A stretch of 62,293 bases of DNA from a virus: the IMG/VR virus record IMGVR_UViG_3300031726_000004, positions 1 through 62,293 of that record. One strand, given 5' to 3'. The translations under genes and the position numbers were made by a program. The notes beneath the pieces were generated by a model. It was not told where the DNA came from and ran no database searches. It was given only the letters and a program-made list of their open reading frames with translations. Position 1 is the stretch's first letter. Each line of letters begins with the position of its first letter. Below are positions 8,075-45,842 of the stretch, in pieces.

Positions 8075-8388
8075 GCCGTCGTCGTCGTCTTTGTTGCTAC
8101 GGCTGGCGTCACCGGCACCTTGGGTGGATCATAGACCAGCACGTCAAGCGGATCGACGACCTTTGCGTACATCAGGCCGGCATTGACGTCAGCATCATCC
8201 GTCGCGATTGGCGCGTTGGTGAAGTCGGCAGCGACGACCTTACCGGCTGGGATGCTGTCCCAATACCAGAACGGTTGACCAACGCCCGGCGTGGTCTTCA
8301 CCAATACCGGAACGATGCTTGGCACGGTTGTCAGTCCGCGCACGATGGTCTCGCCCTTCAACTCGATTTCACAAACCAGTTTAGCCAT
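8071..8388 (-). CDS. Hypothetical tail-region protein
   Basis: The 105-residue protein has an N-terminal beta-rich part (VCEIELKGETIVRGLTTVPSI), a FWYWDSIPAGKVVAADF segment and a low-complexity end rich in Val, Pro and Thr (PKVPVTPAVATKTTTTA). No family was recognised. Its place between the fibre-type genes and the sheath suggests a virion or fibre-assembly role. Confidence 0.6.
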   Translation of the reverse strand: MAKLVCEIELKGETIVRGLTTVPSIVPVLVKTTPGVGQPFWYWDSIPAGKVVAADFTNAPIATDDADVNAGLMYAKVVDPLDVLVYDPPKVPVTPAVATKTTTTA

Positions 8389-8400
8389 TTGTCACGTCCC

Positions 8401-8970
8401 TCATGTTGGTAACCTGAAAACCTGCACCGAAAAATCAATCGGATCGAAAGCAGTCGCTTCGCCGTCAACACTCTTCATTTCGATCACGAAGTAATCCGTC
8501 GTCTTTTCGGTCACCTGACCCAACCCGGACGATACGACGAAGTAATTGAGATCAGGCTGCGGCAGCGAAAAAAACAGCATGTAGGAACCGACATCCGCAT
8601 AGACCGCCGCCGCAATGTTGAACAATCCGCCTGTGACGCCGACATCGCCATCGACAATCGGAATGTTGTAAACCGCCGCGACACGAGCAGGCGGCTGCAC
8701 CAGCGTTGCAACCGTGCGCACCTCATAGGTCTCCGTCACGAAGTCACGCACGCGCGTATAGATCGGCTCGCCGTAGGCTTCCTTGCCGGGCGGCACCACG
8801 AACGGCTCGACTTGAAACAGACCAACCGCGATTTGTTGTGCGATTGTCCACGACAGCCAGACTTGCGGCGGCACCTGCACATCAGGCAAGCCATTAGTCT
8901 TCACAATAATGGCGTCACTCGAATTAACGACGCGAAAGTCATAGGCTGCTAGTTGACGAACAAATTTCAT
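8401..8970 (-). CDS. Hypothetical tail-associated protein
   Basis: The 189-residue protein begins MKFVRQLAAYDFRVV at ATG 8970, with GGAG eight bases upstream, so longer starts were rejected. It is beta-rich with no obvious transmembrane segments or known domain. It lies four bases after the glycine-rich fibre gene and is probably part of the adhesion module. Confidence 0.65.
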   Translation of the reverse strand: MKFVRQLAAYDFRVVNSSDAIIVKTNGLPDVQVPPQVWLSWTIAQQIAVGLFQVEPFVVPPGKEAYGEPIYTRVRDFVTETYEVRTVATLVQPPARVAAVYNIPIVDGDVGVTGGLFNIAAAVYADVGSYMLFFSLPQPDLNYFVVSSGLGQVTEKTTDYFVIEMKSVDGEATAFDPIDFSVQVFRLPT

Positions 8971-8974
8971 TCCA

Positions 8975-9625
8975 TCAACTCCAAGAGACATAGACGGCAC
9001 CAGCCGCACCGTAAGCCGGCCCGGACGCACCTGATATTTGTTCACTGACACCGGGCGAACCACCCGGACCAACAACGATAGTGATGACAGACAACGGCAC
9101 TAACTGGCCTTCGATCCAAGTCTTATAGGCGCGACCACCCGGACCACCGCTACCACCTTGGGCAGAACCACCAGCAGGCCCACCACCAAACCCCGGAGCA
9201 TAGCCGCCAACACCACCAGCAGCGCCGCCGCCTGTAATATTCCCATCGCCATTCAAGCCGGTGCCAGACGCCCCGACAGCACCGTTGTAACCGTTAGGAC
9301 CACCGCTGCCGCCATATCCGACAACGTTGCCCGTCGGCGCATTGAAGTAGCTATAGCCGCCCGCGCCGCCCGGCGTTGCAGACCCGGCATGCACTTCGAC
9401 GCCGCCGCCGCCGCCGCCAGCGCCTCGCGCATCGGCCGTCAGCGAATTATGATTTGGTACCGTGAAATTGAATGATCCCACCGTTGCGAAAGTTTGCGAG
9501 CCGGGGATCACTAGCGGACGCAACGCCTTTGGGAACGGCGCAATACCGGGTATCCATAAATGCGGACGCGCGATCACGCGAGGTTGCGGCACATGCTGTT
9601 GTTGCTTGCGCCTGACCGCGATCAT
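8975..9625 (-). CDS. Glycine-rich tail-tip protein, candidate adhesin
   Basis: The 216-residue protein has a short basic start (MIAVRRKQQQ) and the strand block GSQTFATVGSFNFTVPNHNS. From about residue 66 to 200 it carries a Gly-rich region (GGGGGG, GGAGGYSYF, GGSGGPGG) and ends in VYVSWS. This matches the glycine-rich domains found at the tips of many phage fibres, where polyglycine helices form receptor-binding surfaces. ATG 9625 overlaps the stop of the upstream fibre gene (ATGA). Confidence 0.75.
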   Translation of the reverse strand: MIAVRRKQQQHVPQPRVIARPHLWIPGIAPFPKALRPLVIPGSQTFATVGSFNFTVPNHNSLTADARGAGGGGGGVEVHAGSATPGGAGGYSYFNAPTGNVVGYGGSGGPNGYNGAVGASGTGLNGDGNITGGGAAGGVGGYAPGFGGGPAGGSAQGGSGGPGGRAYKTWIEGQLVPLSVITIVVGPGGSPGVSEQISGASGPAYGAAGAVYVSWS

Positions 9626-11024: not shown

Positions 11025-13271
11025 TCAAAGCGCGTAATAAAGCCGCTCACCAATATGAAAGAGGTTTGCCGGCGAATTTGACGTACCCACAAATTCGATT
11101 TGGAAGTCAGTAGTCAAAGCCGGCGTGAACACCCATTCCCTTTTGTAACGCTTCATCCCGAGATCAACGACGGTCGTCGTCACCGTGTCCGCGATCTCTT
11201 CACCCGTGCCGATATGCAGCGCACACGTGATGTCATGCGGGATTTCGTCATAGTGTTCAATTTGCGCGACTACATGAATTTCGGTCGAAGGCGCACCCAA
11301 ATGCATCATCGTGGATACATGCTTGAACGCGATCTTTGGCCGCGACACATAGACCCGCGAACCGGTTATTTGCAGCCCTGCTTGCACGTCTTGGGTTCCG
11401 ACAAATCGAGCGCGAAATTGACAAAGCGGAGGCGCGTTGGTCAACACCTGTAAGTTATCAAGCGTCAATCCCTGCCATTCGCCCGTGCCATTCGGCCGCA
11501 TTTCGTAAATCAATTGACAGCTTGCAGGAACGATGGTGCCAGCCGTGATGTCGATATCTCGAAAGCCACCGTCCAGATTGATCGGCGCAAATTCGATGGT
11601 CACTTGCGAAGCGTTGAACCTCGCGCCCCAAACTTCGATCATCATGTCTCGGATCAAATCACCGAGATAGTAAACGCCGTCTGTCGAGTAGAAAAACGTC
11701 CCGTCAAGATAGGATTGACCGTAAGCCATGCCGACCCGGTGATTTGCGTTTGATGTCAACAGGATCGCGTAGCGCTTACCACGATCAAGAAACGTCGGCA
11801 CGATATCGATATGGTTCCAACCAACCACGATCGACGATTGATCGTAAACCTGATGACTGATCACCCTTGACGTATCAGGCATGCCATTCGTGACTTCGCA
11901 TAGCGACACGATGATGTTTTCCGCGCCACCCTTGGCGGTGATGTAGAACCCGAGCCGGGTTGCCCACATGTCATTCGCATTCAAAAACGTTTGCGCGACT
12001 TGCGCGCCGGAAATGGCGTGATTGATAACCTCCAACTCCCAATAGCTTTCCGTCCAACTATCGTGCCACCAATAATCATAGTTGGTCCAAGTGTGCCCGC
12101 CACCACCACCGGTCACGGTCGTTGTTTGATACGTGGCATAATTCGGCAACCAATACGGCGCTTGTTCTCCTACTGCATTCCATTGCGTCGCGCCGTTCGA
12201 ACACACCGAGTATTCGCCGCCGTAGCGTAGACGTTCTTTGTGAATGGTGACCTGCACCATCTCGAACGTCTGATAGCCGTACTGCGCAATGCCGATGTCA
12301 TCGTGATATGGACCAATCGATAGTTTCACGATCGACGTGAATGCCGGCAGCAACAATCCGGATTGATAATGGGCGTTCTGATCATTCGCCGAGAATAGCG
12401 AAATCTCAAAAATGTTGGCATTGGCGGCAGGGAAGCGTGCGCCCATCTCTACCAAAGCATCATAGCCAAGCAACGTCGTGTTGCCGCTGTCGCTCTGCGT
12501 GTCTTGCAGGAAATAATCCGCGCCGTACTGCGCATATGCCGCTGGCAACCCGACTTTTTCCTTCACTTCCGCAAGATCGCGATACAACGTCACGACATCG
12601 ATTTTTTGCGCGCTACTGTTAGCCTTGGCCGCAAGCGCCGCAAGATCAGATGCCAACGACGTGACACGCGGACCAATCATCGCATCGAACGTCTCAACCG
12701 TTCCTAGCCGGCTGTCCAAATCCTCGACCGATGACACCTCAAATTCCGGGTACATCGTGACCGAAACAACCGATAGCGGATCAAGCAACACGTCGCAAAT
12801 CTTGGCATTGGAAATCGGGATCGACGGCGCTTGCGGATCGGCGCTCTCCGCTCCATTGGTCAACGTCAACACCGCATCGCGTGACGACACCGTCGCCATT
12901 GCACGCGGCTCGGTGCGGCCGGTCGTCACATCAACCAGATAATCACGTTCCTCAATGTCGGTTTCATTGGTGACACCGTAAGCGCTGATCGTGATAATGC
13001 GCTTCGCCGTGCTCGGCAGCAGAGACAGCATTGATTGAACAGTGACAGACGATAGATTGAAGACCGCGCCGCTAAGATCGTAAAATCGTCCGGGAGCAAT
13101 CTGCACTTCGCTTTGCGCAGTCTTGACAACACCGAACCCGGAATATTTTCGGGTAGTCGTCACGACATCGGAAACGAGGTGATCCAACGATGTGCGGGCA
13201 AATAGCTGCAAATCGTTGTGGTCCTGCGCTTGCTGCTCCTGATAATCGCGAAAGATGATTTGCTTTTCCAC
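11025..13271 (-). CDS. Large baseplate/fibre-associated structural protein
   Basis: The 748-residue protein starts MEKQIIFRDYQEQQAQDHND and has a beta-rich N-terminal region (VVKTAQSEVQIAPGRFYD, then TISAYGVTNETDIEERDY), typical of baseplate proteins that anchor fibres. Residues about 180-250 are helical. The C-terminal part is rich in aromatic residues (YDYWWHDSWTESYWELEV) and resembles a carbohydrate-binding beta-sandwich. It sits between gpI and the fibre gene. It was not matched to a named family with certainty. Confidence 0.75.
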   Translation of the reverse strand: MEKQIIFRDYQEQQAQDHNDLQLFARTSLDHLVSDVVTTTRKYSGFGVVKTAQSEVQIAPGRFYDLSGAVFNLSSVTVQSMLSLLPSTAKRIITISAYGVTNETDIEERDYLVDVTTGRTEPRAMATVSSRDAVLTLTNGAESADPQAPSIPISNAKICDVLLDPLSVVSVTMYPEFEVSSVEDLDSRLGTVETFDAMIGPRVTSLASDLAALAAKANSSAQKIDVVTLYRDLAEVKEKVGLPAAYAQYGADYFLQDTQSDSGNTTLLGYDALVEMGARFPAANANIFEISLFSANDQNAHYQSGLLLPAFTSIVKLSIGPYHDDIGIAQYGYQTFEMVQVTIHKERLRYGGEYSVCSNGATQWNAVGEQAPYWLPNYATYQTTTVTGGGGGHTWTNYDYWWHDSWTESYWELEVINHAISGAQVAQTFLNANDMWATRLGFYITAKGGAENIIVSLCEVTNGMPDTSRVISHQVYDQSSIVVGWNHIDIVPTFLDRGKRYAILLTSNANHRVGMAYGQSYLDGTFFYSTDGVYYLGDLIRDMMIEVWGARFNASQVTIEFAPINLDGGFRDIDITAGTIVPASCQLIYEMRPNGTGEWQGLTLDNLQVLTNAPPLCQFRARFVGTQDVQAGLQITGSRVYVSRPKIAFKHVSTMMHLGAPSTEIHVVAQIEHYDEIPHDITCALHIGTGEEIADTVTTTVVDLGMKRYKREWVFTPALTTDFQIEFVGTSNSPANLFHIGERLYYAL

Positions 13272-13327: not shown

Positions 13328-14554
13328 TTAGGGTTGGCCAATCACATAGCTATCAACCCCAGCAAAGAACGGTTTTCCGGCGATAAAGAAGTGAGTTGGC
13401 CCGATCACCAAATCGATGTGATCAGAAAGCCGTTTCGCAGCACGCAACCCGCGCAATGCCTTCTGCAACGGCTCGCCATTGTGCGGTATCCAAAATCGCT
13501 GGAGCGCAGCTACTATCCCCGAGCCAGCCGCGAAAGCACTGCGCTTACCCGGCACCGATATCGTGACCCGCGCATAATGACGTGGCCATCCATAACACCC
13601 AACACCCATGAACTGCACTGCCGCGCCCCTTGGCGGTGTTGATCCATCCAACACGGCATAGCGATGAAAGATGCGTTCCGGCGCTGTCGTGGGGATAAAA
13701 TAGCCATGGAAAACCACATCGCAAAACACGCTGTAGCCACGCGTGCCGTCAACCGTAATCAGTTCGGGAGCACTGGAAACCGCGATCAACGAAGGCGTAA
13801 TCGGTGATCGCCACGACAAACCTGGCTGCGGTGCAATCGAAAGCAATCGTGACGAAGCGGTCGTCGGAATGTAATAGCGACCCGGCTGAAATGGACGCGA
13901 GCAGAAAATACTCTTGCCAGCCTGCGAAGGGATGTGAAGGATTTCAATCGAACCATCATTAGTAACGGTCGTGTCAGTCTCGACACCATTGACGACCCAC
14001 ACCGCTTTGCGCTGATGATGTAACAACGCCGTCGAAGGGATCGACACCGACCAATTGAGGGCAAACGGCGCACCGTGTAGCGAGATCGCGGAAGGTGCGG
14101 CAAGAAATGCTTTCCGCTTTGGAGCGTAAGACACCACACGATGATCGTACAACCGCACCTGCGGCAAGCGCGATAGCCATGCCTCGCGCGCTTCCTTGCT
14201 CAACGACGCACCGGAGAACACCCCCATTGGTGGCCGCTCAATCTTGCTCACATCGGCATCGACATATCGCGCGTACTCACGCAGGCAATAGGCAGTGCCC
14301 TTTTTTGCCTGCAACAACAGCGCCGCCGCCGTCACCGCGCGCTTGCGGGTTTCGTTCCAATCGTCTTCCCAAATATCAGCCGACAGTTCAAACGCCAGAT
14401 GCGGCAGGAATTGCGCTGGCACATCATAGGGACGCTTGAGCAGATCGATATCAACCGGCAACCCCGCCATGCGCGCGCCGACCGCCGACAACACCCGCTC
14501 GAATGCCGTCGCATTACGCGGCAACAGATGTTGATCGAATGTCGGAAGCGCCAT
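13328..14554 (-). CDS. Tail protein I with long C-terminal extension
   Basis: The first 125 residues match P2 gpI: LLPRNATAFERVLSAVGARM, then LPHLAFELSADIWEDDWNE and RAVTAAALLLQAKKGTAYCL. P2 gpI has about 176 residues, but this protein has 408. The extra 230 residues are beta-rich and unrelated to P2. GpI joins the baseplate wedge to the fibre, so the extension may be a fibre-docking or adhesin domain. It overlaps gpJ. Confidence 0.85.
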   Translation of the reverse strand: MALPTFDQHLLPRNATAFERVLSAVGARMAGLPVDIDLLKRPYDVPAQFLPHLAFELSADIWEDDWNETRKRAVTAAALLLQAKKGTAYCLREYARYVDADVSKIERPPMGVFSGASLSKEAREAWLSRLPQVRLYDHRVVSYAPKRKAFLAAPSAISLHGAPFALNWSVSIPSTALLHHQRKAVWVVNGVETDTTVTNDGSIEILHIPSQAGKSIFCSRPFQPGRYYIPTTASSRLLSIAPQPGLSWRSPITPSLIAVSSAPELITVDGTRGYSVFCDVVFHGYFIPTTAPERIFHRYAVLDGSTPPRGAAVQFMGVGCYGWPRHYARVTISVPGKRSAFAAGSGIVAALQRFWIPHNGEPLQKALRGLRAAKRLSDHIDLVIGPTHFFIAGKPFFAGVDSYVIGQP

Positions 14555-17311: not shown

Positions 17312-17706
17312 GAGCGGATCAACGCAATCGCCGTGCGCCCGGTTGCGTCGGGCGAAGCGCGGCTGATCTCATAGCGTTCATCGTTGCGCTCAAGCAACAG
17401 CACTATGTCTCCGGTTTGTGGATCGGTGCCGATGACGTCACGTGTACGAACGGACACCGCAAGATTGCTGACTGCGATGCGTTCACGAAACGGCGACCCG
17501 GCATGATCGCCAGCGAGGTTCACAACCATGTCTTGCGCAGTCGTAAACACCGCAACCACCTCGCAAGATGGTCGCGCGTCGTTCTCGGTCGCATCCGAGT
17601 ATTCGCTAACTTGCATCGGCACAATTCGAATGCGCTCGCCCCATTGCTGATTGATGACGCTTTCAACCCGCCCGGCAAGCTTGCGCCAATCAACCAAAGG
17701 ACTCAC
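17308..17706 (-). CDS. Putative head-tail connector protein
   Basis: The 132-residue protein lies directly downstream of the major capsid gene, the position of lambda FI/FII-type joining proteins. The C-terminal strand pattern (DVIGTDPQTGDIVLLLERND, then YEISRASPDATGRT) fits a small beta-barrel connector. It overlaps both neighbours, by four bases each. The assignment rests mainly on position. Confidence 0.6.
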   Translation of the reverse strand: MSPLVDWRKLAGRVESVINQQWGERIRIVPMQVSEYSDATENDARPSCEVVAVFTTAQDMVVNLAGDHAGSPFRERIAVSNLAVSVRTRDVIGTDPQTGDIVLLLERNDERYEISRASPDATGRTAIALIRS

Positions 17707-18722
17707 GTGCGCTTGCCCTTCATCAAGGTTTTCGGGCGCGTGCAGATGTTGAGATTGTTGGTTTGGCTGTCGAGATGAATACCCTTGCCGTTCGGCATGT
17801 CGTATTGCTTGGCATAGGTGCGTTGTCCCGGCCGGTTCACCGTCTCGATATAATCAGCCGGTGCGAAGTAGGTTCGGAACAGTCCGGGGACGCCAATCGG
17901 GAACATGAAACACTTGTCCGTCGGCACGAACAGAGTGCCACCCACAGCACCGCGATAGTTTTCGAAGATGATGCCGCCGAAATCGAACTGTCCCCAAATT
18001 TCGCCGTTGGGTCCGATGTAGGCCTGTCGCAACTGTTCGGCAGCGGGATTATTCAGAAACGTCTTGACCACTTCCGGATGGGCAATCAGGTTGTCGAAGA
18101 ACGTATCGCCGCACACCGCGCGCACACCAGCGAACGGAATGCCGTCCAGATTGGCACCCATGGTGCGCGTGATCTTTGCGCACAACAGACGCAACGCCCC
18201 CGATGCCGGCGTGACGTTGTCGAGATCAAAATCAGTCTCGACTTCCGCCACCACGTTGAACTCACCGAACAAATCAAGCGTGGTGCCATCGGCGTAAGTG
18301 ACAAGGCCTTGCACCGCGCCGATACGCGAATATTCGATGGTCGCTTCATGCGACAGCCGATGCAGCAACAGCCGCTCAGACACCTTGTCTTGCAGAAATT
18401 GGGTTTGATCCTCGGTGCCCCACGCGCGCACGCCCTGCACTTCCTCGGCCATCACACCATCATTGATTTCGAAATGCGGCACAGTGAACGGACGCCCGGT
18501 GCGCAGCGCCTTATCGATGGTCTGACCCGGACCACCACGCGGCGTTGGCGACACCAACACCAGTTGCCCGGCGCGCTGTTCGATCACAATCGTCGTAGTC
18601 GCAACCGGGGTTTCCTGAAACAGCCCGAGACTTCCCAACCGTCGCGGCTGAAACACGGGCGCGTTGATGGCATCGGTGAGCGACACCACGTTGAAAAGAT
18701 TTGAATGGAAGATGTCCAACAT
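17703..18722 (-). CDS. Major capsid protein (lambda gpE-like)
   Basis: The 339-residue protein starts at ATG 18722, with GGAAAGGA nine bases upstream. It matches the lambda E-type capsid family: MLDIFHSNLFNVVSLTDAIN at the start, DKVSERLLLHRLSHEATIEY in the spine helix and the end region TYFAPADYIETVNRPGQRTY. The length is typical of the family. It follows the decoration protein, as in lambda. Confidence 0.93.
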   Translation of the reverse strand: MLDIFHSNLFNVVSLTDAINAPVFQPRRLGSLGLFQETPVATTTIVIEQRAGQLVLVSPTPRGGPGQTIDKALRTGRPFTVPHFEINDGVMAEEVQGVRAWGTEDQTQFLQDKVSERLLLHRLSHEATIEYSRIGAVQGLVTYADGTTLDLFGEFNVVAEVETDFDLDNVTPASGALRLLCAKITRTMGANLDGIPFAGVRAVCGDTFFDNLIAHPEVVKTFLNNPAAEQLRQAYIGPNGEIWGQFDFGGIIFENYRGAVGGTLFVPTDKCFMFPIGVPGLFRTYFAPADYIETVNRPGQRTYAKQYDMPNGKGIHLDSQTNNLNICTRPKTLMKGKRT

Positions 18723-18817
18723 TGGACGGTGTCCTTTCCGAATAGCGATCACGCCCCGCGCGGCGAATGCCGGCAGGTTGTTTAATTCGCTGTGATGTTG
18801 TTGAGGGGGTAGCTAAG

Positions 18818-19221: not shown

Positions 19222-19593
19222 TCAATGCGATGACGGCAGCGTCGCGCCGACCCGCGCTAGCGACGACCGCCAACTAGCCTTTGGATCGGGCCGCGTCTCG
19301 GTACCACCGAGATCAAACGACAACGGAGCCGCTGACCTCTCCGCAATCGTTGGCCCCGTTGCCGTCAATGTCGCGACCACTGCAACCGGCAACGTTGCCA
19401 GCAATGATTTCGCCTCATCCACCGACAGCGAAGTTTTCAACGCAAGATTTTGCGCCTGCGGCTCACGCCCTTTGGCTTCCTCGCATGTCAGGATTGCAGT
19501 GATCCGCGCTTGCGCGGCTGCGGCACCTTCGGCGCGAATGGCGGATGCATCGACTTGAGTCGTAGCGGCGATCTCTGCGGGATTTGCATTCAT
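19222..19593 (-). CDS. Nested internal start: scaffolding protein (Nu3-like)
   Basis: An in-frame ATG at 19593 (codon 311 of the protease gene) is preceded by CGGAG eight bases upstream. It would produce a 123-residue, Ala/Glu-rich helical protein starting MNANPAEIAATTQ. Lambda makes its scaffold Nu3 from the same kind of internal start in gene C. The initiation signal is visible; the product is inferred. Confidence 0.6.
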   Translation of the reverse strand: MNANPAEIAATTQVDASAIRAEGAAAAQARITAILTCEEAKGREPQAQNLALKTSLSVDEAKSLLATLPVAVVATLTATGPTIAERSAAPLSFDLGGTETRPDPKASWRSSLARVGATLPSSH

Positions 19594-20523
19594 GGTCAGT
19601 CTCCGTTGGTTGCTGCGGGTTGAAGCCGACAGACGCGAAAGCGTTTCGGCAAACGTGCCGACACGATCGGCAAGGCCTTTTGCCTCGGCCTCGGCACCAA
19701 TGAAGGTGTCTGCCTCGGTGGCCCGGATCATATCGTTAGTAAGCGACGGCCTGCCGGCTGAAACCGTCTCCACGAAACGATCATAAAACGTATTGACGTC
19801 CCGTTGCAGCGCGGCCTTCACGTCCTCGGACAATGGCCCGAACGGATTGCCGTCAACCTTGTGCGCGCCCGCAAAAATCAGCGTCGGCGTGCGTCCCTTG
19901 TTTTTCAATTCCTGGGATTGGTCCATATGCATCATCACAACGCCGATCGAACCGGTGATCGATGTCGGTGACACCACGATCTCAGTTGCGGCGCTGGCGA
20001 GACCGTAAGCAGCGCTTGCGGCCATATCGTTGACAAGCGCGGTGATCGGTTTGATTTGCCGGGATGCCATGATCTGTTGCGCAAGCGCAAACATCCCCAT
20101 TGCTTCGCCGCCCGGACTATCAATATCGAGCATGATTGCTGCAACGTTCGGATCGGCAATCGCAGCCGCGATTTGCACCCCGAGCCCTTCATAAGACGTA
20201 AACCCCGAACTGTCCTCACCAATGAAAGCGCCACGATTGATCAACGTGCCAATTACCGGGATCACGGCAACACCGTTCGCCACGTTGTAAAGCACCTCAA
20301 GCAAGCGCCCGCGTTCATCGGTCGGGCCGGTTGGATCACCGACCAAACGGTTGCCGGTTGGCCTGATCTGCTTGAAGGCGTCCGGTATGCCGGCGAGATC
20401 AATCGACGTCGGATCAAACCCGATACGCTCGCCTAGCACCGCCGCAATCACACATGCCTTGTAACGATGAATGAACAACGGTCGTCCGAGAACGCGATCG
20501 GCGACATGAGATAGATACGTCAT
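19222..20523 (-). CDS. Prohead protease (S49/SppA family) fused to scaffold
   Basis: The 433-residue protein starts at ATG 20523, overlapping the upstream stop (ATGA). Residues 80-290 are an S49 peptidase of the lambda gpC type: IMLDIDSPGGEAMGM forms the oxyanion region and NDMAASAAYGLAS holds the nucleophile Ser170. A lysine in FAGAHKVDG, about residue 223, fits the catalytic base. The C-terminal 123 residues are Ala-rich and helical and are probably the scaffold. It cleaves scaffold and portal during prohead maturation. Confidence 0.92.
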   Translation of the reverse strand: MTYLSHVADRVLGRPLFIHRYKACVIAAVLGERIGFDPTSIDLAGIPDAFKQIRPTGNRLVGDPTGPTDERGRLLEVLYNVANGVAVIPVIGTLINRGAFIGEDSSGFTSYEGLGVQIAAAIADPNVAAIMLDIDSPGGEAMGMFALAQQIMASRQIKPITALVNDMAASAAYGLASAATEIVVSPTSITGSIGVVMMHMDQSQELKNKGRTPTLIFAGAHKVDGNPFGPLSEDVKAALQRDVNTFYDRFVETVSAGRPSLTNDMIRATEADTFIGAEAEAKGLADRVGTFAETLSRLSASTRSNQRRLTMNANPAEIAATTQVDASAIRAEGAAAAQARITAILTCEEAKGREPQAQNLALKTSLSVDEAKSLLATLPVAVVATLTATGPTIAERSAAPLSFDLGGTETRPDPKASWRSSLARVGATLPSSH

Positions 20524-21140
20524 CGCAGCCCTCGCGAGTAGGAACCAAGCTTCATTGCAAAGCGATAGGGTTTGCTGCCCGGTGTCTGACGCTGGCACGC
20601 GGCTTCGAGCCGCACGATTTCATCACTCAAGGTATCGATATCGGGTGTTGCATATTGCACTTCCCGATCAGAAAATCGCACGCGAATGACGCCAGCGCCG
20701 CCGATCAACTGATAGTAAGCCGCCCGCAACGCGGTAGCTGCGGCGCAAGGATCATCATAATCGACCACGGCCGGATCAACGGGCGTGTATCCCGTCAAGC
20801 TCGGCACGTCTGTGACTTCGATCAGTCCAACGGCTTGCGTTGCGACCGTGCCGTCTTTCATCGTAAGGCGCAAGATATCCTGATAGAGACCCTTGACGAT
20901 CGTCGCGGACTTGGCCGCATCGATTTTGATCAACAACAGCCCGTTGACCTGATCAATGATTTCAATGCCGTCATCAAGAGATGCGCTCAACACTTCCGTG
21001 CTATCCGCACCGTTCAATTGCCATTGAACACTTGCGACCATCGATAGATCGATCGCATTGCCGTGCACATCCGAACACGCCGCATTGATGGACCACGTGT
21101 CACCAATGATGAACGTGAATTTCTGATGCACCGCTGTCAT
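20520..21140 (-). CDS. gpW-like head-tail joining protein with N-terminal beta domain
   Basis: This 206-residue protein looks like a fusion. Residues 1 to about 105 form a beta-sandwich-like region (FTFIIGDTWSINAACSDVHG, VASVQWQLNG, DILRLTMKDGTVA), similar in pattern to N-terminal domains of receptor-binding and baseplate proteins. Residues about 130-190 (CAAATALRAAYYQLIGG, YATPDIDTLSDEIVRLEAAC) match lambda gpW, the plug that joins the head to the tail. Lambda gpW has only 68 residues. It overlaps the SPRY gene and the protease gene by four bases each. Confidence 0.75.
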   Translation of the reverse strand: MTAVHQKFTFIIGDTWSINAACSDVHGNAIDLSMVASVQWQLNGADSTEVLSASLDDGIEIIDQVNGLLLIKIDAAKSATIVKGLYQDILRLTMKDGTVATQAVGLIEVTDVPSLTGYTPVDPAVVDYDDPCAAATALRAAYYQLIGGAGVIRVRFSDREVQYATPDIDTLSDEIVRLEAACQRQTPGSKPYRFAMKLGSYSRGLR

Positions 21141-23722
21141 GAAGACATGCCCCGAATGGAATTGCTCATCACCCGGCCTCGGATAACCGCGTTATCCCTG
21201 CCGCCAACAATCGTCGCACCAGTTTGCGATCCTTTGACCACGCGCGCGAAGCGCAAGTGAAACAAGTGCCCCGCCAATCGGCTTCCCAGCACCTGAAACT
21301 CTGCGGCATCGACAGCGAAGTGATACCGAAAACCAATCTTATAGAAATCGGACGCGCCGCTATCGAGCCGAAACACACGTGATTGAGCGGCTAGCCTAGC
21401 CATATATCTCGCTGATAAGCCAGATGTGCCAGTCACAAACGCGCCCGCGCCAAGGCTCAGTGACAACGCCCTGACTGTCGTATTGCCAGCCACCGAGTAG
21501 TGCGCATGATCACAGACAAGACCACGGCCAACCCGCCAACTCACTGACTGTCCCGTGACACCGCCAGCCCGGCCACCGCCAGATATCACGCGGTGCATGC
21601 CCAACACCGCAACTAATCCAGTGGCCGCTATCACTCCGGTCTGACACACCAGTGAATAGACACTGACCTTGGTCAAAGACACAGGATTGCCGATTAGACC
21701 ATACGATGCGATCGACGCCACCGACGAACGCCTGATAGCGATATTGCCAGCGACCACCGTGAAGCCGCCGTCGTCAAGTGACTTTCGCAATCTGCGAGCC
21801 GTGGCACCACCGAATAGAAGGTATGCACCACCAAAAGCAGCAATGCGATGATGACTTACACCCGCTTGCGGCGAACCAATAAGATCAATCGAGCCGCTGT
21901 CGGCGGCAATGCGCAGATGCGCCACAAGTGGACGCACCCCGCAATGAAATGAAGCCGTCTCACATGACAGGCGCAACGACAGTCGCGTATTCAAGCCAGC
22001 GATGTTGAATGCACCGCACGACGCGACGCGCGATAGCGAACGCGGAATTGACCCACCATTGATCGCGAACGCGCCGACCTCGCTGTGATTGACGTGATTG
22101 CGCGCAATCCTGAAAACGACATCATAGCCAACAACACCAAATGTGCCGCGCGCGGCACAGCAACTCAATCGACGCGACGTTGACGAAACGACAACAGAGA
22201 CATGACCAACCGCTGCTAGCCTGCGCATTGATCGCGCTGCATTCACGCCGTGAAGCGCAATCGCGCCTGTCGAACACGGCATTTTGTATTGCCGCAACGA
22301 AACCGCAACCCCGGTCACGGCGAATGACTGCCCGTCGCAGACTAGACGATTTCGCTTCAGCGTTCCTACACCAACCGCCGCCAACGCAAACGCACCACCC
22401 TCCGCAACCACCTTCAACGCGGGTGCCGCAACGCCATACCAGTTCGAAAACCCGACGGGTGGAGGATAGCTAAACGGGACGGTGCCAGTGTTGATTGTCG
22501 CTGATGCACCAACAGTGTCAGCCAAGAAAAATGGTAGAAACGGCTTTGCAACAACACGAGTAGACCAAGGCACGCCACCAACACCAGTTGCCGGATCGGC
22601 ATTGACATCGTTGTTCCAAAGGCCGCCATCGACTCGAAACCAGAACGTTCGCGAAGCGGCGTCAAGAGCGATATCAACCGTTCCTAGTGATGCGACAGCA
22701 ATCGGCCGCGACGCTATCCCGGTCCATGAAACGAAATAACCAGCGCCGCTATCAATCCAAAATGCTGACCCCGGCGTCAAATTGTCCGGATCATAGTCAG
22801 ACGTCAACCACCGCAAACCACAGATCATTCCGCTTTCGGAATGAAACGACAGAAACCATTTGCCCGTGGCAGGACAGCTATCAACGCCCGAAATGCAGGC
22901 AGGCGCTTCCGTTACAACTACTTTGCGATTGTTGTCCGACAGCGTGCAGTTGCCGCCATTGCCGCTCCAACCTCCCGAAACAGGCGTGAAAATCCGGCTT
23001 AACAAGCGTGCCGACTTCGCGCCATATAACGCCAACGACGCGCCATCACATCGAAGCTGATACCCCTTACCGATCGCAGCGTCACCAGCCTGCAAGCTGA
23101 ATACGCCACCTTGCACGGGCAGACTAGGCGGCGGGGGAGCGTACCAACTTGAAAACCCAACGGGAGGCGGATAGGTGAATGCCTCGGTGCCCGTGTTGAG
23201 CGTGATGAAGTTGCCGTCAGCTTCCAAATATAGAAATGGCAAAAAGAGTGGAGACCCGCTCACCCATGGAGAAAGGTCATAACCTCCAATGCCGGTTGCT
23301 GGGTTAGCTGTAGTAAGCGGTTTCCTATTCCATAGCTTGTTGTCAGCCCGCGCCCAGAACAACTTGGCATCGAGATCGATAGCCAAATCGCAAATGCTGC
23401 CCGCGACCATCGCAGCGCAACCCGGCCCCCCAACTGAAGCACCAGCCCAGCGATAAAGGCCACTGGTTCCGATTTGGATAGCATTATCGGGAGGGTTTTG
23501 ATCGATCGACGCCGACAAGTCAGCGCGCAACAATCCAAACATATTAGCGCCAGTCTGACCGATCGTGAACGAAAGAAAACGCTTCCCGGTTGATTGGCCA
23601 TTCGTTGCAGTGATGGTCATCGGCCACGTGACACACGTTGCCGTTCGATCTCCGTTGGATAGAGCAACCACGCCGGTACGAACGTCGGAGCTATTCCAAC
23701 CGCCGTCTATCGCGCCGGTCAT
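21137..23722 (-). CDS. Tandem SPRY-domain protein with long beta-repeat array
   Basis: This 861-residue protein has two SPRY/B30.2-like domains, about residues 5-190 and 241-430. Each has GKRFLSF or GKWFLSF, an LAIDLDAKLFWARAD or IALDAASRTFWFRVD strand, N-P-A-T-G and a closing TYPPPVGFSSWY or SYPPPVGFSNWY. A short repeat segment lies between them. From about residue 436 to 850 there are some 18 units of 20-24 residues, each with a pattern like Leu-x-x-x-x-Gly-x-Phe-x-x-x-Gly. It lies between head genes, so it may be a head or neck fibre; SPRY folds usually bind proteins. Cysteines are frequent in the array. Confidence 0.8.
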   Translation of the reverse strand: MTGAIDGGWNSSDVRTGVVALSNGDRTATCVTWPMTITATNGQSTGKRFLSFTIGQTGANMFGLLRADLSASIDQNPPDNAIQIGTSGLYRWAGASVGGPGCAAMVAGSICDLAIDLDAKLFWARADNKLWNRKPLTTANPATGIGGYDLSPWVSGSPLFLPFLYLEADGNFITLNTGTEAFTYPPPVGFSSWYAPPPPSLPVQGGVFSLQAGDAAIGKGYQLRCDGASLALYGAKSARLLSRIFTPVSGGWSGNGGNCTLSDNNRKVVVTEAPACISGVDSCPATGKWFLSFHSESGMICGLRWLTSDYDPDNLTPGSAFWIDSGAGYFVSWTGIASRPIAVASLGTVDIALDAASRTFWFRVDGGLWNNDVNADPATGVGGVPWSTRVVAKPFLPFFLADTVGASATINTGTVPFSYPPPVGFSNWYGVAAPALKVVAEGGAFALAAVGVGTLKRNRLVCDGQSFAVTGVAVSLRQYKMPCSTGAIALHGVNAARSMRRLAAVGHVSVVVSSTSRRLSCCAARGTFGVVGYDVVFRIARNHVNHSEVGAFAINGGSIPRSLSRVASCGAFNIAGLNTRLSLRLSCETASFHCGVRPLVAHLRIAADSGSIDLIGSPQAGVSHHRIAAFGGAYLLFGGATARRLRKSLDDGGFTVVAGNIAIRRSSVASIASYGLIGNPVSLTKVSVYSLVCQTGVIAATGLVAVLGMHRVISGGGRAGGVTGQSVSWRVGRGLVCDHAHYSVAGNTTVRALSLSLGAGAFVTGTSGLSARYMARLAAQSRVFRLDSGASDFYKIGFRYHFAVDAAEFQVLGSRLAGHLFHLRFARVVKGSQTGATIVGGRDNAVIRGRVMSNSIRGMSS

Positions 23723-23729
23723 TGGCTAA

Positions 23730-23996
23730 CTACCCGAACCGCGCGCCGACCGCGCCTTGCTCGGCGAGCATGTGAAAGTGTTTGCCTCCTGGCTGTCGCG
23801 TGACCTCACGCGCGCGCGAGCGATAGCCTCTGCACCACATTTGCACAAAGGCCTCCGCTACTTCAGGTGTCATCACGTTTGCGGCGATCTGCTCATGCGC
23901 AGCACCGTTGCCGTGCACGATGTAGAGGTTGCGGCTTTCAGGTTCCCACGCGAAACCGAAATTCAGATCGGGCGCAATCATTCTCAAGACAGCCAT
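23730..23996 (-). CDS. Hypothetical protein next to portal cluster
   Basis: The 88-residue protein starts MAVLRMIAPDLNFGFAWEPE; a G-rich stretch precedes ATG 23996, while a TTG at 24017 would overlap the neighbour. It has a mixed alpha/beta pattern with LYIVHGNGAAHEQIAANVMT and no transmembrane segment. Function unknown; location between the portal and SPRY genes suggests a virion or assembly role. Confidence 0.6.
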   Translation of the reverse strand: MAVLRMIAPDLNFGFAWEPESRNLYIVHGNGAAHEQIAANVMTPEVAEAFVQMWCRGYRSRAREVTRQPGGKHFHMLAEQGAVGARFG

Positions 23997-24013
23997 GATG
24001 ACCCCCACACGTT

Positions 24014-24433
24014 TCAACCCAACGTCAACACGCCATTGGCCTGATCAAAGTCGATGGTGAATGTCTCGGTGTTGGCCAACGTAACATCCGAGCCGTATTC
24101 CCACCAACCTATCAAAGGATCGAGAGGTGTGGCCGGCGTGTCGTTGAAAAGCACGACCGTACCGAACGGAGCGACCGCACCCGATGCCGTCAACACCAAG
24201 TCTTGCAGGATCAACTTCGCAATTCCTGCGGTCTGCCCGAATGATGTCAACGTCGGCACGCGCGCCGACAAGTTGGTATAGGCAATCTGTGTGAGGTTGC
24301 CGAGAATGGTGTTAGTGGCAACCGGCTTGTTCGCCGCCGCCGTCAACGCGACAGTGAGCGCACCAGTTGCGAGATTGTGCACACCCTTGCCGACGTCTTC
24401 GACAAACGAATTGATCTTGTTGAATGCAGCCAT
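24014..24433 (-). CDS. Structural protein of head fibre cluster
   Basis: The 139-residue protein begins MAAFNKINSFVEDVGKGVHN, a start shared by a group of phage structural proteins that often accompany fibre genes. It continues with a beta-rich part (LTVALTAAANKPVATNT, VVLFNDTPATPLDPLIG, FTIDFDQANGVLTLG). Together with the SPRY protein and the gpW fusion it forms a three-gene insertion in the lambda-type head module. Function is inferred from position. Confidence 0.65.
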   Translation of the reverse strand: MAAFNKINSFVEDVGKGVHNLATGALTVALTAAANKPVATNTILGNLTQIAYTNLSARVPTLTSFGQTAGIAKLILQDLVLTASGAVAPFGTVVLFNDTPATPLDPLIGWWEYGSDVTLANTETFTIDFDQANGVLTLG

Positions 24434-24452
24434 GGTGATCGTCTCCTAATTG

Positions 24453-26093
24453 TTATGCTTGCGCTTTGTCGCCGTCTTGGCTTCCAGATGAAGCACCACC
24501 GAACCCCGATGGTGGTTTGGGTGGAGGCGGTTCGGGCAAACCCAATTTCTTGCGCATCGCCATTTCGCGCTGGCGCTGCTCATAGATGTCTTCCCAATCC
24601 TCACCCATTTCGGCGCAAATCCATTCGTCAGTTAGCACGCCCATGCCCTTCAGGGTCTCAACGGCGGTAGCGAATTTCTGATCATCGGCTTGCGGTCTTG
24701 CCGGGCCTCGCCAATGCGAGCGCGACGCCGCCGCACGATTGGCGAGATAGCCGGCAACTCCACCGGGGAAAGTAATCCAGCCGTTTTCGATTTCTTCCTC
24801 AAGCCAACTTTCGAAGATCGCTTGCAGGAACGGCGACAGGATGTGAGCGCGACGATAAATCGTCATCATCCACATTTCGGCCCCGGCCATGCGAACGGAC
24901 GAATACGTTGCGCCGCTATAGTCTCCGGTCAGTTGCTCCACAGTGATGCCAAGACAGCGCGCGATCTCGCGTAGCAGGAAGCGCACAAAGGCTTCATAAG
25001 TGTCGTTCGGATGTTGGCTGGCGTTGAAATTCAGTTCGTCACCGGGCGCAAGATGCGCGATCTTGCCATGTGATCCGAGATCGATCTGTGTCGCGTCATA
25101 CCAGCCGGCGCGCATTTCAAGCATGGCTTCCAACGGCGAGCCCGGCACGCCCGTACTTGATGCCGACACCTGTTGCTCGGCCAAATCCTGAAACGCTTGC
25201 AACACCGCCTCAGTAGGTTCGGGCGATTTAATTGTCGCGGCGAAGATCGCTTGAATGAGCGCCGCTGTGAGTGTCGCATCAGCTAGTTGATCGAACTGCT
25301 TGACCACCTTGAGCGCTGGCGTGATCGGCGGTATCCCGCGCAATTGTCCGGGCATGCCGTCGAACACATGAATGATATTCGGTCGTCCAAATCGATCGCG
25401 CGCGGGCACGTCGGTATAGGCACCGAGCGGAAACATGTTGCGCACATAGGGTGCTTGCAACATGCGATAGCCAACCGGGAAGCCATAGGCATCCCTGAAT
25501 ACGCCCTGCACCAAACCGCGATCGATCTCGGTATCTTGCGACAACCGATGCGGCGGCAACATCTGCACCTTGGTGCCGTACTGATTGAACGACCGCTTTA
25601 GATACGGCAGGCCGGCGAGAATTTCACCGTAGCAAAACCACGTTCGCATACCTTGCGCCGTCATCTTGCCGACCGAAGACTTGCCTTCGATATCGCATTC
25701 GAGTGCGTTATCTGCCCAGCCTTCCCAACGTCGTTCAACCGTGCGCGCCCATGCTTGCGCAGTCTCTTGCGTCCAACCGAGCCCTTGCGCATCCGGCCGC
25801 GACGATAGCCGCAGACCCGGCCCCACCGTCATCACCACGGCCTGATCAATGCCACCTGAAACAAAACCAGAATTTTGCACGGTGTCGATCGCACGCGAGG
25901 CGGCAATCACATAAGCCTGTCGCACATCGTCGGAAGCCTCGCGCAAGGCAGGCCGCCACGAATGAAAGAACGGCGAGACATCGCCCTTCATGTAGGTTGC
26001 GCCGATCCGCTTGCGCGGCGCGTCAGCCTTCGCAGGCACCGCGCGGCGCACCGCTTTCTTGACCGGTGCCTTGCGCGATGTCTTTGCGGCCAT
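24453..26093 (-). CDS. Portal protein (lambda gpB-like)
   Basis: The 546-residue protein is a lambda-type portal: RRWEGWADNALECDIEGKSS, MRTWFCYGEILAGLPYLKRS, VQMLPPHRLSQ and a YSSVRMAGAEMWMM segment in the stem-wing region are typical. It forms the dodecameric ring through which DNA enters. A Lys/Arg-rich extension at residues 1-30 (TSRKAPVKKAVRRAVPAK) may contact DNA or scaffold. The C-terminus is Pro/Gly-rich. Confidence 0.95.
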   Translation of the reverse strand: MAAKTSRKAPVKKAVRRAVPAKADAPRKRIGATYMKGDVSPFFHSWRPALREASDDVRQAYVIAASRAIDTVQNSGFVSGGIDQAVVMTVGPGLRLSSRPDAQGLGWTQETAQAWARTVERRWEGWADNALECDIEGKSSVGKMTAQGMRTWFCYGEILAGLPYLKRSFNQYGTKVQMLPPHRLSQDTEIDRGLVQGVFRDAYGFPVGYRMLQAPYVRNMFPLGAYTDVPARDRFGRPNIIHVFDGMPGQLRGIPPITPALKVVKQFDQLADATLTAALIQAIFAATIKSPEPTEAVLQAFQDLAEQQVSASSTGVPGSPLEAMLEMRAGWYDATQIDLGSHGKIAHLAPGDELNFNASQHPNDTYEAFVRFLLREIARCLGITVEQLTGDYSGATYSSVRMAGAEMWMMTIYRRAHILSPFLQAIFESWLEEEIENGWITFPGGVAGYLANRAAASRSHWRGPARPQADDQKFATAVETLKGMGVLTDEWICAEMGEDWEDIYEQRQREMAMRKKLGLPEPPPPKPPSGFGGASSGSQDGDKAQA

Positions 26094-28675: not shown

Positions 28676-29548
28676 ATGGCACGTGACCTTTACCAGCAAG
28701 TTACAGACAGGATGGTTGCAGCGCTTGAAGCGGGCAACGTTCCTTGGATACGACCCTATAGCGTGTCGGGATCAGCCATTCCGATGAACGCAATCAGCAA
28801 TCGCCCGTACAGCGGCATTAACGTGGTGCTGTTCTGGATTTCGAAAGCGGAAGGTTATGCGACCTCGCGTTACCTGACCTTCAAGCAAGCCAAAGAAGCC
28901 GGCGGGCACGTGCGCAAGGGCGAAAAGGGCATGCCGCTGTATTTCTTCAAGCAACTCGCCATCCAAGACAAGGCAACGGGCGAAGACAAAACGATCCCGA
29001 TGCTTCGCGAATACACCGTGTTCAATGTGGCGCAATGCGACGACCTGCCCGAGCACATCGTCACGGGCAAGACCAGCACCACACCGAAAAATCCCGATGA
29101 TCGCGCGGCGGAAGCCGATGCATTCATCGCCGCGACAGGCGCGGACTTTCGCGAGGGCACGGGCAAGCCTTGCTACATCCCTTCGAAAGACTTCATTGCA
29201 ATGCCGTCGTTCAAGGATTTCCACGCCGCTCCGAACTTCTACAGCGTGGCATTTCATGAACTGGCGCATTGGACAGGCGCGAAGTCACGCCTTGATCGCG
29301 ACTTTTCGGGCCGGTTCGGCACGAAGCAATATGCCGCTGAAGAGTTGGTGGCCGAACTCAGCGCCGCGTTTCTCTGTGCAGAGTTTGGTTTCGACAACGA
29401 ACAGCAGAACGCGGCCTATCTCGCAAGCTGGATTGAACTGCTTAAGGAAGACAAGCGGGCAATCTTCACCGCCGCAAGCAAGGCGCAAGCCGCTGCAAAC
29501 TACCTCCGCGATCTGGCCATCGCGGAACCTGAAGCACTCGCCGCATGA
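28676..29548 (+). CDS. ardC: ArdC-type antirestriction protein with zincin domain
   Basis: The 290-residue protein matches ArdC. The N-terminal ssDNA-binding domain occupies residues 1-125 (RMVAALEAGNVPWIRPY, then NRPYSGINVVLFW, FKQAKEAGGHVRKGEKG). A metallopeptidase-like domain occupies about residues 145-285, with HELAH at 194-198 (FHELAHWTG) and YAAEELVAELSAAFL supplying a likely third zinc ligand. ArdC proteins protect incoming DNA from host restriction. As the first gene of the rightward early operon it would be made early. Confidence 0.93.
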   Translation: MARDLYQQVTDRMVAALEAGNVPWIRPYSVSGSAIPMNAISNRPYSGINVVLFWISKAEGYATSRYLTFKQAKEAGGHVRKGEKGMPLYFFKQLAIQDKATGEDKTIPMLREYTVFNVAQCDDLPEHIVTGKTSTTPKNPDDRAAEADAFIAATGADFREGTGKPCYIPSKDFIAMPSFKDFHAAPNFYSVAFHELAHWTGAKSRLDRDFSGRFGTKQYAAEELVAELSAAFLCAEFGFDNEQQNAAYLASWIELLKEDKRAIFTAASKAQAAANYLRDLAIAEPEALAA

Positions 29549-45139: not shown

Positions 45140-45842
45140 CCCGATCGCGGCAACACAGACACGAACGAAGTGTGGTGTTGCCGCGCGCCGCGTTGCCACG
45201 CGGTGCAACGCGACGCGACGCAACGCAACGACCTGTCCAGTTTGTCACCGCAACGCGACGCCAACGCCGCTTGCCGCAACACGGCGCTTCACACCACTCC
45301 GCTCCACATTGCTTTGCATCACACCGCAACGTTTTCCGATTTTCTCCCGCGCATCGCACCACGACACAATACCACGCTACACGCGGCCCCGCCGTGCCTC
45401 GCAACGCCCTGCAACACATCGCAACGTTTGCAAAGTTCACTATCGCAGCGCATCACATCGCGACACGATGCCTTGCTCTGCAACTCGGCACTGCGCGCCG
45501 CGTTGCTTCGCATCACGTTTCAGTGCAACGCAACGCAACGCAACGTCTGTCGAAATCAGCACCGCGTCGCCGTGCCAGCGCGGCGCAGCGCGACGCCACA
45601 CAACGCATCGTCCACACACCGCATCGTCAATGCAACGCAACGAACGTTTCTATCGAGATCAACAACGCTGCGCGATGCGCCACTGCACGACGCGCCACCT
45701 CACGACCCAACGCAACGCAACGTCTATCGAGATCACCAACGCTACGCGACGCGTCGCAACTCGACACTACGCCGCACGATGCGACACAACGCTTCACGAC
45801 ACAACGCAACATTCCCTTTCACCAGTTCAAGGAATGCGTATC
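45140..45842. repeat. 700-base CGCAACG-rich low-complexity tract
   Basis: The tract is built from words such as CGCAACG, GCGACGC and CACGACAC and is open in several plus frames because these words lack stop codons. The translations are Arg/His/Thr/Gln-rich, unlike the other genes. Three imperfect longer copies have a GCAACGCAACG head and a TCTATCGAGATCA-like core: about 45524-45569, 45630-45682 and 45708-45757. One frame starts ATG 45136 in an ATGA overlap with the upstream stop, so coding in part cannot be excluded. The tract is treated as non-coding. Confidence 0.65.

Follow-up and report, generated by a model that had tools for sequence, protein, structure and literature searches.

What is a gene for two SPRY-like domains and a long array of repeats doing inside the head module of a phage? 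The question is raised by the window analysed here, the whole 62,293-nt stretch of virus record IMGVR_UViG_3300031726_000004. Its structural module joins a lambda-type head (TerL, portal, S49 protease, gpD and gpE) to a P2-type contractile tail. The gene lies among these head genes, as the initial annotation had placed it, in an uninterrupted 861-codon frame with an ATG start whose limits agree with those first reported (Table 1). The answer favoured here, with moderate confidence and from comparison of genes and models, is that its product may be an adhesin that can be exchanged between phages, attached to the head-tail adaptor and projecting as an arm from the neck.

Other parts of the window hold features of their own. 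A 748-aa protein of the tail-fibre region (11025-13271) matches phrog_17470 over its full length (E=4e-205). A 290-aa ORF beside TerS, on the opposite strand (28676-29548, +), is ArdC-type antirestriction-like by eye, and the other half of the genome contains short imperfect tandem DNA repeats of 71-77% identity (45528-45808).

Table 1. Features of the cassette and its surroundings, in window coordinates.
Feature	Position	Strand	Basis or match
Tail protein I, followed by ordinary tail-fibre region	13328..14554	-	PF09684 E=2e-22
Major capsid protein E, context	17703..18752	-	PF03864 E=6e-88
S49 head maturation protease, downstream border	19222..20598	-	PF01343 E=1e-34
gpW head-tail adaptor domain of 206-aa fusion, residues 122-203	20532..20777	-	phrog_75 (head-tail adaptor Ad1) E=1.3e-7
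N-terminal beta domain of the same 206-aa fusion, residues 1-118	20787..21140	-	phrog_1084 E=1.6e-4
SPRY/repeat protein, whole gene, 861 aa	21137..23722	-	phrog_10080 E=4.7e-14, function unassigned
C-terminal tail, about three 9-residue units, residues 830-861	21140..21235	-	similar to L167 fibre C-terminus
About 18 degenerate repeats of 18-25 residues, presumed shaft, residues 440-825	21248..22405	-	profile 33.2 bits
Predicted SPRY domain 2, residues 241-432	22427..23002	-	AF2; Foldseek vs PDB; family HMM E=2e-36
Two 22-23-residue repeats between the SPRY domains, residues 203-244	22991..23116	-	weak profile match, 4.4 bits
Predicted SPRY domain 1, residues 1-196	23135..23722	-	family HMM E=8e-45; AH2 gp46 homology E=2e-16
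95-aa ORF, TTG start	23730..24017	-	matches position of small ORFs in L094, EBPR2, MW202742
phrog_644 protein, 139 aa, conserved partner of repeat proteins	24014..24433	-	PHROG match
Lambda-type portal, upstream border of cassette	24453..26093	-	PF05136 E=4e-91

Two predicted SPRY domains and a degenerate repeat array

The two N-terminal domains are copies of one unit of about 190 aa, 36% identical over 177 aa (E=4e-25), which closes with PPPVGFSSWY in the first copy and PPPVGFSNWY in the second. From these ends the initial annotation had proposed two SPRY-like domains and named structure prediction as the check. The AF2 model of the second copy, built with the family alignment, reaches a pLDDT of 86.2 and a pTM of 0.85. 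The best 50 PDB matches listed by Foldseek for this model are SPRY/B30.2 structures or complexes containing such domains, with RanBP10 (E=8e-8) and DDX1 (TM 0.70) at their head, and the prediction thus returned the fold that had been proposed.

Sequence searches with the window protein find no match to Pfam, no match in PDB (phmmer, E≤1), no PF00622 match to either SPRY copy alone even at E≤10, and no close relative of the whole 861-aa protein in genome and viral contigs. The family was therefore reached through proteins of phages AH2, MMDA13 and FLC9. The first copy matches AH2 gp46 by BLAST, and gp46 in turn matches PF00622 (E=1.4e-5). The second matches MMDA13 gp24 (E=1.5e-14), which matches PF00622 at about 1e-5 and is assigned conserved domain cl02614, presumably the SPRY superfamily, in its record. 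A domain of FLC9 gp64 is homologous to both copies as well. Across the family, 35 of 90 aligned members match PF00622 at E≤0.01, and two whole homologous proteins pass the curated Pfam SPRY cut-off (48.2 and 33.1 vs 26.3 bits). Model and homology together assign the SPRY fold to both domains.

The companion claim that SPRY domains are uncommon in phage does not survive. An alignment-based scan of viral contigs returns 144 phage-contig relatives of the domain, Foldseek against BFVD matches phage proteins named B30.2/SPRY, and SPRY domains have been noted before in tail fibres and other virion components of jumbo phages (Iyer et al. 2021, PMC7824862). With its SPRY part the protein joins a kind of domain already known in phage. 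Within the window this protein stands alone, as neither the SPRY nor the repeat profile matches any other of its ORFs.

The repeat array described at the outset is real, and its count and layout change: instead of some 18 units, about 20 degenerate ones are present, two of them between the SPRY domains and about 18 behind, followed by a tail of 9-residue repeats. Taken alone, the period of the repeats gives only a weak signal in the 861-aa protein (z 2.9 at lag 20). When residues 429-861 are scored with a profile built on clean 22-residue repeats from other phages (consensus about SAGAGSFALTGQDATLNKARNL), the result is 33.2 bits, and 500 shuffles of the same stretch reach no more than 6.0 bits, so the window repeats are not due to chance. 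Because two of them separate the SPRY domains, the second domain is embedded in the array. The repeats are far more degenerate than those of relatives, which could suggest a decaying adhesin whose units erode through loss of function. This is very improbable, as the reading frame is intact and the residues conserved across the family persist in both SPRY copies.

The units of the tail read ..ATIVGGRDN AVIRGRVMS NSIRGMSS. Many repeat-protein relatives likewise end in short repeats of 9-12 residues, and the window protein has a C-terminal motif in common with the fibre of contig L167, each of the two beside a gpW with a beta domain (p about 5e-4 by shuffling). The tail is a possible docking peptide. 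Diversification of the gene by template and variable repeats was considered and rejected, since self-comparison of the window gives no repeat touching it.

The repeat family and its phrog_644 partner

The 22-residue repeat type (GSFALTGQ) builds whole proteins or shafts in many phages. Examples lie in contigs L093 (1796-4609), L099 (8789-11377), L077 (5720-11032) and L106 (4014-6470), and such proteins often open with a motif like MLGxxPLAxAPLA and close with the short repeats described above. Where the family was tested against Pfam, no match was found. The AF2 model of the clean L093 array is beta-rich, with about two strands per repeat (pLDDT 75, pTM 0.79), and its search against PDB folds gives nothing better than E=0.4.

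What marks these loci is the company that the repeat gene keeps. In the window, as in its relatives, a phrog_644 gene lies upstream on the same strand, an arrangement found in each of the eight repeat loci whose upstream sequence extends to 4.9 kb or more. The gene occurs in 6/6 further repeat records vs 7/39 SPRY records without repeats; when contigs L014 and L077 are included, the comparison becomes 8/8 vs 7/39 (Fisher p=2e-5). Seen from the other side, 24 of 38 phrog_644 loci in bacterial genomes have a repeat gene within about 7 kb (hand count). In phages and in prophages of alphaproteobacteria, the phrog_644 proteins collected here (L123-L160) are near-constant companions of repeat fibres. 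The window copy is 59% identical to the one adjoining the SPRY/repeat gene of L014. PDB searches with it yield nothing convincing, and the 95-aa ORF that follows it has no relatives in Pfam, PHROG and further searches.

Cyanophage Pam1 (L090) also carries a phrog_644 homologue. Its identification as the Pam1 cement protein, for which a structure has been solved, was rejected, as the annotated cement protein is gp6 and the homologue is gp9, of unassigned function. Directly behind it, gp10 (8272-9003) starts with two repeat-like units, and its remainder resembles a 'needle protein' of solved structure (9vzi, E=2e-7), which might offer a structural way into the module.

These relatives support a virion appendage in general: AH2 gp46 is annotated as a tail-fibre protein, and the L014 gene adjoins tail-hub genes. 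The same facts count against a neck location in particular. The protein might be an ordinary tail-fibre or tail-tip adhesin that assembles at the baseplate, its gene being in the head module by chance. Tail-fibre proteins are found among the SPRY homologues; L014, whose cassette is nearest when phrog_644 proteins are compared, has it behind a tail-hub gene; another close cassette lies in a podovirus-like genome (L077); and in EBPR2 gp72 the repeats are fused to a phrog_8917 domain. However, the P2-type tail of the window has its own fibre region after gpI, so that the 861-aa protein is not a displaced sole tail fibre. Related phages also carry different fibre cassettes at the identical site between portal and gpW, and a gpW with a beta domain accompanies the fibre in the window, L167 and L168. 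A baseplate adhesin is thus judged unlikely, and the neck fibre remains the preferred reading.

The insertion site between portal and gpW

The cassette of the window measures 3.7 kb (about 20778-24452) and consists of the 139-aa phrog_644 protein, the 95-aa ORF and the SPRY/repeat protein. The nearest relative found (L161; portal 77% and capsid 78% identical) has portal, an 83-aa gpW and protease in that order, with no other gene between them. Its gpW matches phrog_75 (E=4e-10) and is 48.8% identical to the gpW domain of the window (E=7e-27), which scores 13.4 bits against Pfam gpW, below the cut-off of 22.5. In Mae-JY30, a Pseudochrobactrum prophage and an Agrobacterium plasmid, too, nothing but a small gpW-type gene stands between portal and protease.

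This compact state is the rule. Of 361 portal relatives, 80 were kept for comparison, and the gap is shorter than 450 bp in 69 of the 74 related contigs that have both portal and protease. The five long gaps belong to L162, L163, L167, L168 and L216. L162 and L163 hold a 139-aa 'virion structural protein' (phrog_3758), a 395-aa fibre-like protein and a 245-aa repeat protein; in L162 (8815-11160) this different cassette, with its different 139-aa structural protein, occupies exactly the site used in the window. The cassettes of L167 and L168 are repeat fibres, and that of L168 adds a 127-aa protein matching phrog_240, 'head protein' (E=1.3e-4). When portals are grouped at 90% identity, 3 of 31 groups have a fibre cassette (those of the window, L162 and L167) and 28 are empty. 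As judged from these gene orders, fibre-like cassettes are exchanged at the portal-gpW site among related phages.

The fibres themselves vary as well. Between L167 and L168, portals are 92% identical and fibres 35%, the pattern expected of receptor-binding parts. By eye, the N-terminal parts of these fibres differ most and the C-terminal ends agree, which fits variable heads on a conserved dock.

Two other readings of the site have to be weighed. In L216 (1987-2916) a transporter-like gene, EamA-like by eye, lies between portal and gpW, so the site may be a mere insertion hot spot. The SPRY/repeat gene might then be a moron with no virion role, encoding for instance a SPRY protein that acts inside the host. 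A lysozyme gene just before the beta-gpW gene of phage RcRhea and a lower GC3 (0.56, vs 0.61-0.69 in neighbouring genes) are in keeping with this. Yet a repeat shaft with a double lectin fold is typical adhesin architecture, the phrog_644 partner is retained beside the gene, and such fibres diverge fast, as L167 and L168 illustrate; a moron is accordingly quite improbable. The second reading is a fibre or decoration on the capsid surface, bound to the lattice through the phrog_644 protein. Head fibres exist in some phages, and small proteins of the site match PHROG head families (phrog_3758 in L162, phrog_240 in L168). This too is a poor prospect, since the genome already has gpD as its decoration protein and phrog_644 also occurs near tail genes in podoviruses and siphoviruses.

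The gpW beta domain and a proposed neck fibre

The protein next door also favours the neck. The initial annotation had reported a beta domain fused to gpW, and this is borne out by its phrog_1084 match and by homologues in relatives. Among the 80 portal relatives, only L167 and L168 have such homologues (E=5e-23 and 1e-25). Like the window, both have a repeat fibre, and within this set every beta-gpW goes with one. L162 pairs its fibre-like cassette with a plain gpW. Beta-gpW is thus present in 3 of 4 fibre cassettes, set against 29 loci without a cassette (p=7e-4, phylogeny ignored); when L167 and L168 are merged, the figures are 2/3 vs 0/28 (about 0.006 by hand, phylogeny again ignored). As these two are close relatives, the link rests on about two independent cases.

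Similar neighbourhoods are found farther afield. In L093 a phrog_644 gene precedes the repeat fibre, and directly after the fibre comes a 297-aa protein in which an N-terminal extension is joined to a phrog_442 head-tail adaptor. L094 and L095, which share a metagenome and overlapping repeat sequence and are probably one phage, have the order TerL, phrog_644, small ORF, repeat fibre, beta ORF, beta-gpW 'head-tail joining' protein, portal. A beta domain does not by itself indicate a fibre, as VP882, RcRhea and CRP-831 have beta-gpW fusions with no fibre beside them. The idea that phrog_1084 marks the repeat module in general was dropped as well, since it matches only 1 of 26 repeat-family and related records.

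From these comparisons a neck fibre can be pieced together. The 861-aa protein would be a virion appendage with two lectin-like SPRY heads at its N-terminus, a beta shaft of about 18 repeats and a short C-terminal tail, encoded in an exchangeable adhesin cassette between portal and gpW. Its C-terminal end would dock on the beta domain gained by gpW, the head-tail adaptor, and several copies would project from the neck with their SPRY heads free to bind a surface ligand, glycan or protein, and aid adsorption. We infer presence in the virion, docking, orientation and ligand binding alike. A fibre of the head or neck with ligand-binding SPRY heads had been the initial proposal, and for the neck it has gained comparative support from the empty site in relatives, the alternative fibre-like cassettes and the beta-gpW that stands alongside the fibre. 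More tentatively, the locus could represent a class of phage parts not seen before: swappable neck adhesins made of a repeat shaft and docking tail, a phrog_644 protein and a beta domain grafted onto gpW or another head-tail adaptor, with SPRY heads in this case.

To judge which hosts a tailed phage can infect, one usually looks at its tail-fibre genes, where the structural module ends with the tail. Should adhesins also be swapped at a fixed site inside the head module and docked on the adaptor, host-range prediction would need to cover that site too. The pairing of phrog_644 with 22-residue repeats recurs in dozens of phages and prophages with no function assigned, and the comparison of portal and gpW regions offers a direct, testable docking hypothesis for it.

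A comparison with known systems shows which parts of this arrangement are familiar. Burkholderia phage AH2 gp46 and Sphingomonas phage MMDA13 gp24 share the homologous SPRY domain. Unlike the window protein, they lie with tail genes, have a single SPRY domain and no 22-residue repeats that could be seen, and their genomes lack phrog_644. The SPRY/concanavalin-fold lectins of jumbo phages place SPRY in virion parts, as proposed here, while the excerpts of that account describe no repeat array, head-module cassette or adaptor fusion, all of which the window has (PMC7824862).

In working, the proposed fibre would resemble that of Anabaena myophage A-1(L), where gp80-gp82 form a bead-chain neck fibre with an anchor on the neck ring and a distal carbohydrate-binding module (PMC10966104). 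A-1(L) differs in encoding its fibre in three genes far from other structural genes and in its pentadecameric gp5 anchor (PMC10966104). No host binding was found for its distal module (PMC10966104), so that the window fibre, too, may serve some purpose besides the primary recognition of the host.

The adaptor fusion has its counterparts in VP882 gp05 and RcRhea gp5 (phrog_5774, 'head-tail joining'), where a beta domain precedes gpW near TerL and portal as in the window; these genomes lack an adjacent repeat fibre, and the window protein has no direct phrog_5774 match. Closest in domain content are L014 and L077, in which the same two domain types follow directly behind a phrog_644 gene, in L077 in the order SPRY-repeats-SPRY-repeats. 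The L014 locus lies behind a tail-hub gene and that of L077 in a podovirus-like genome, whereas the window locus lies in the head module. This combination of a head-module cassette with an adaptor fusion is a new context for SPRY/repeat proteins.
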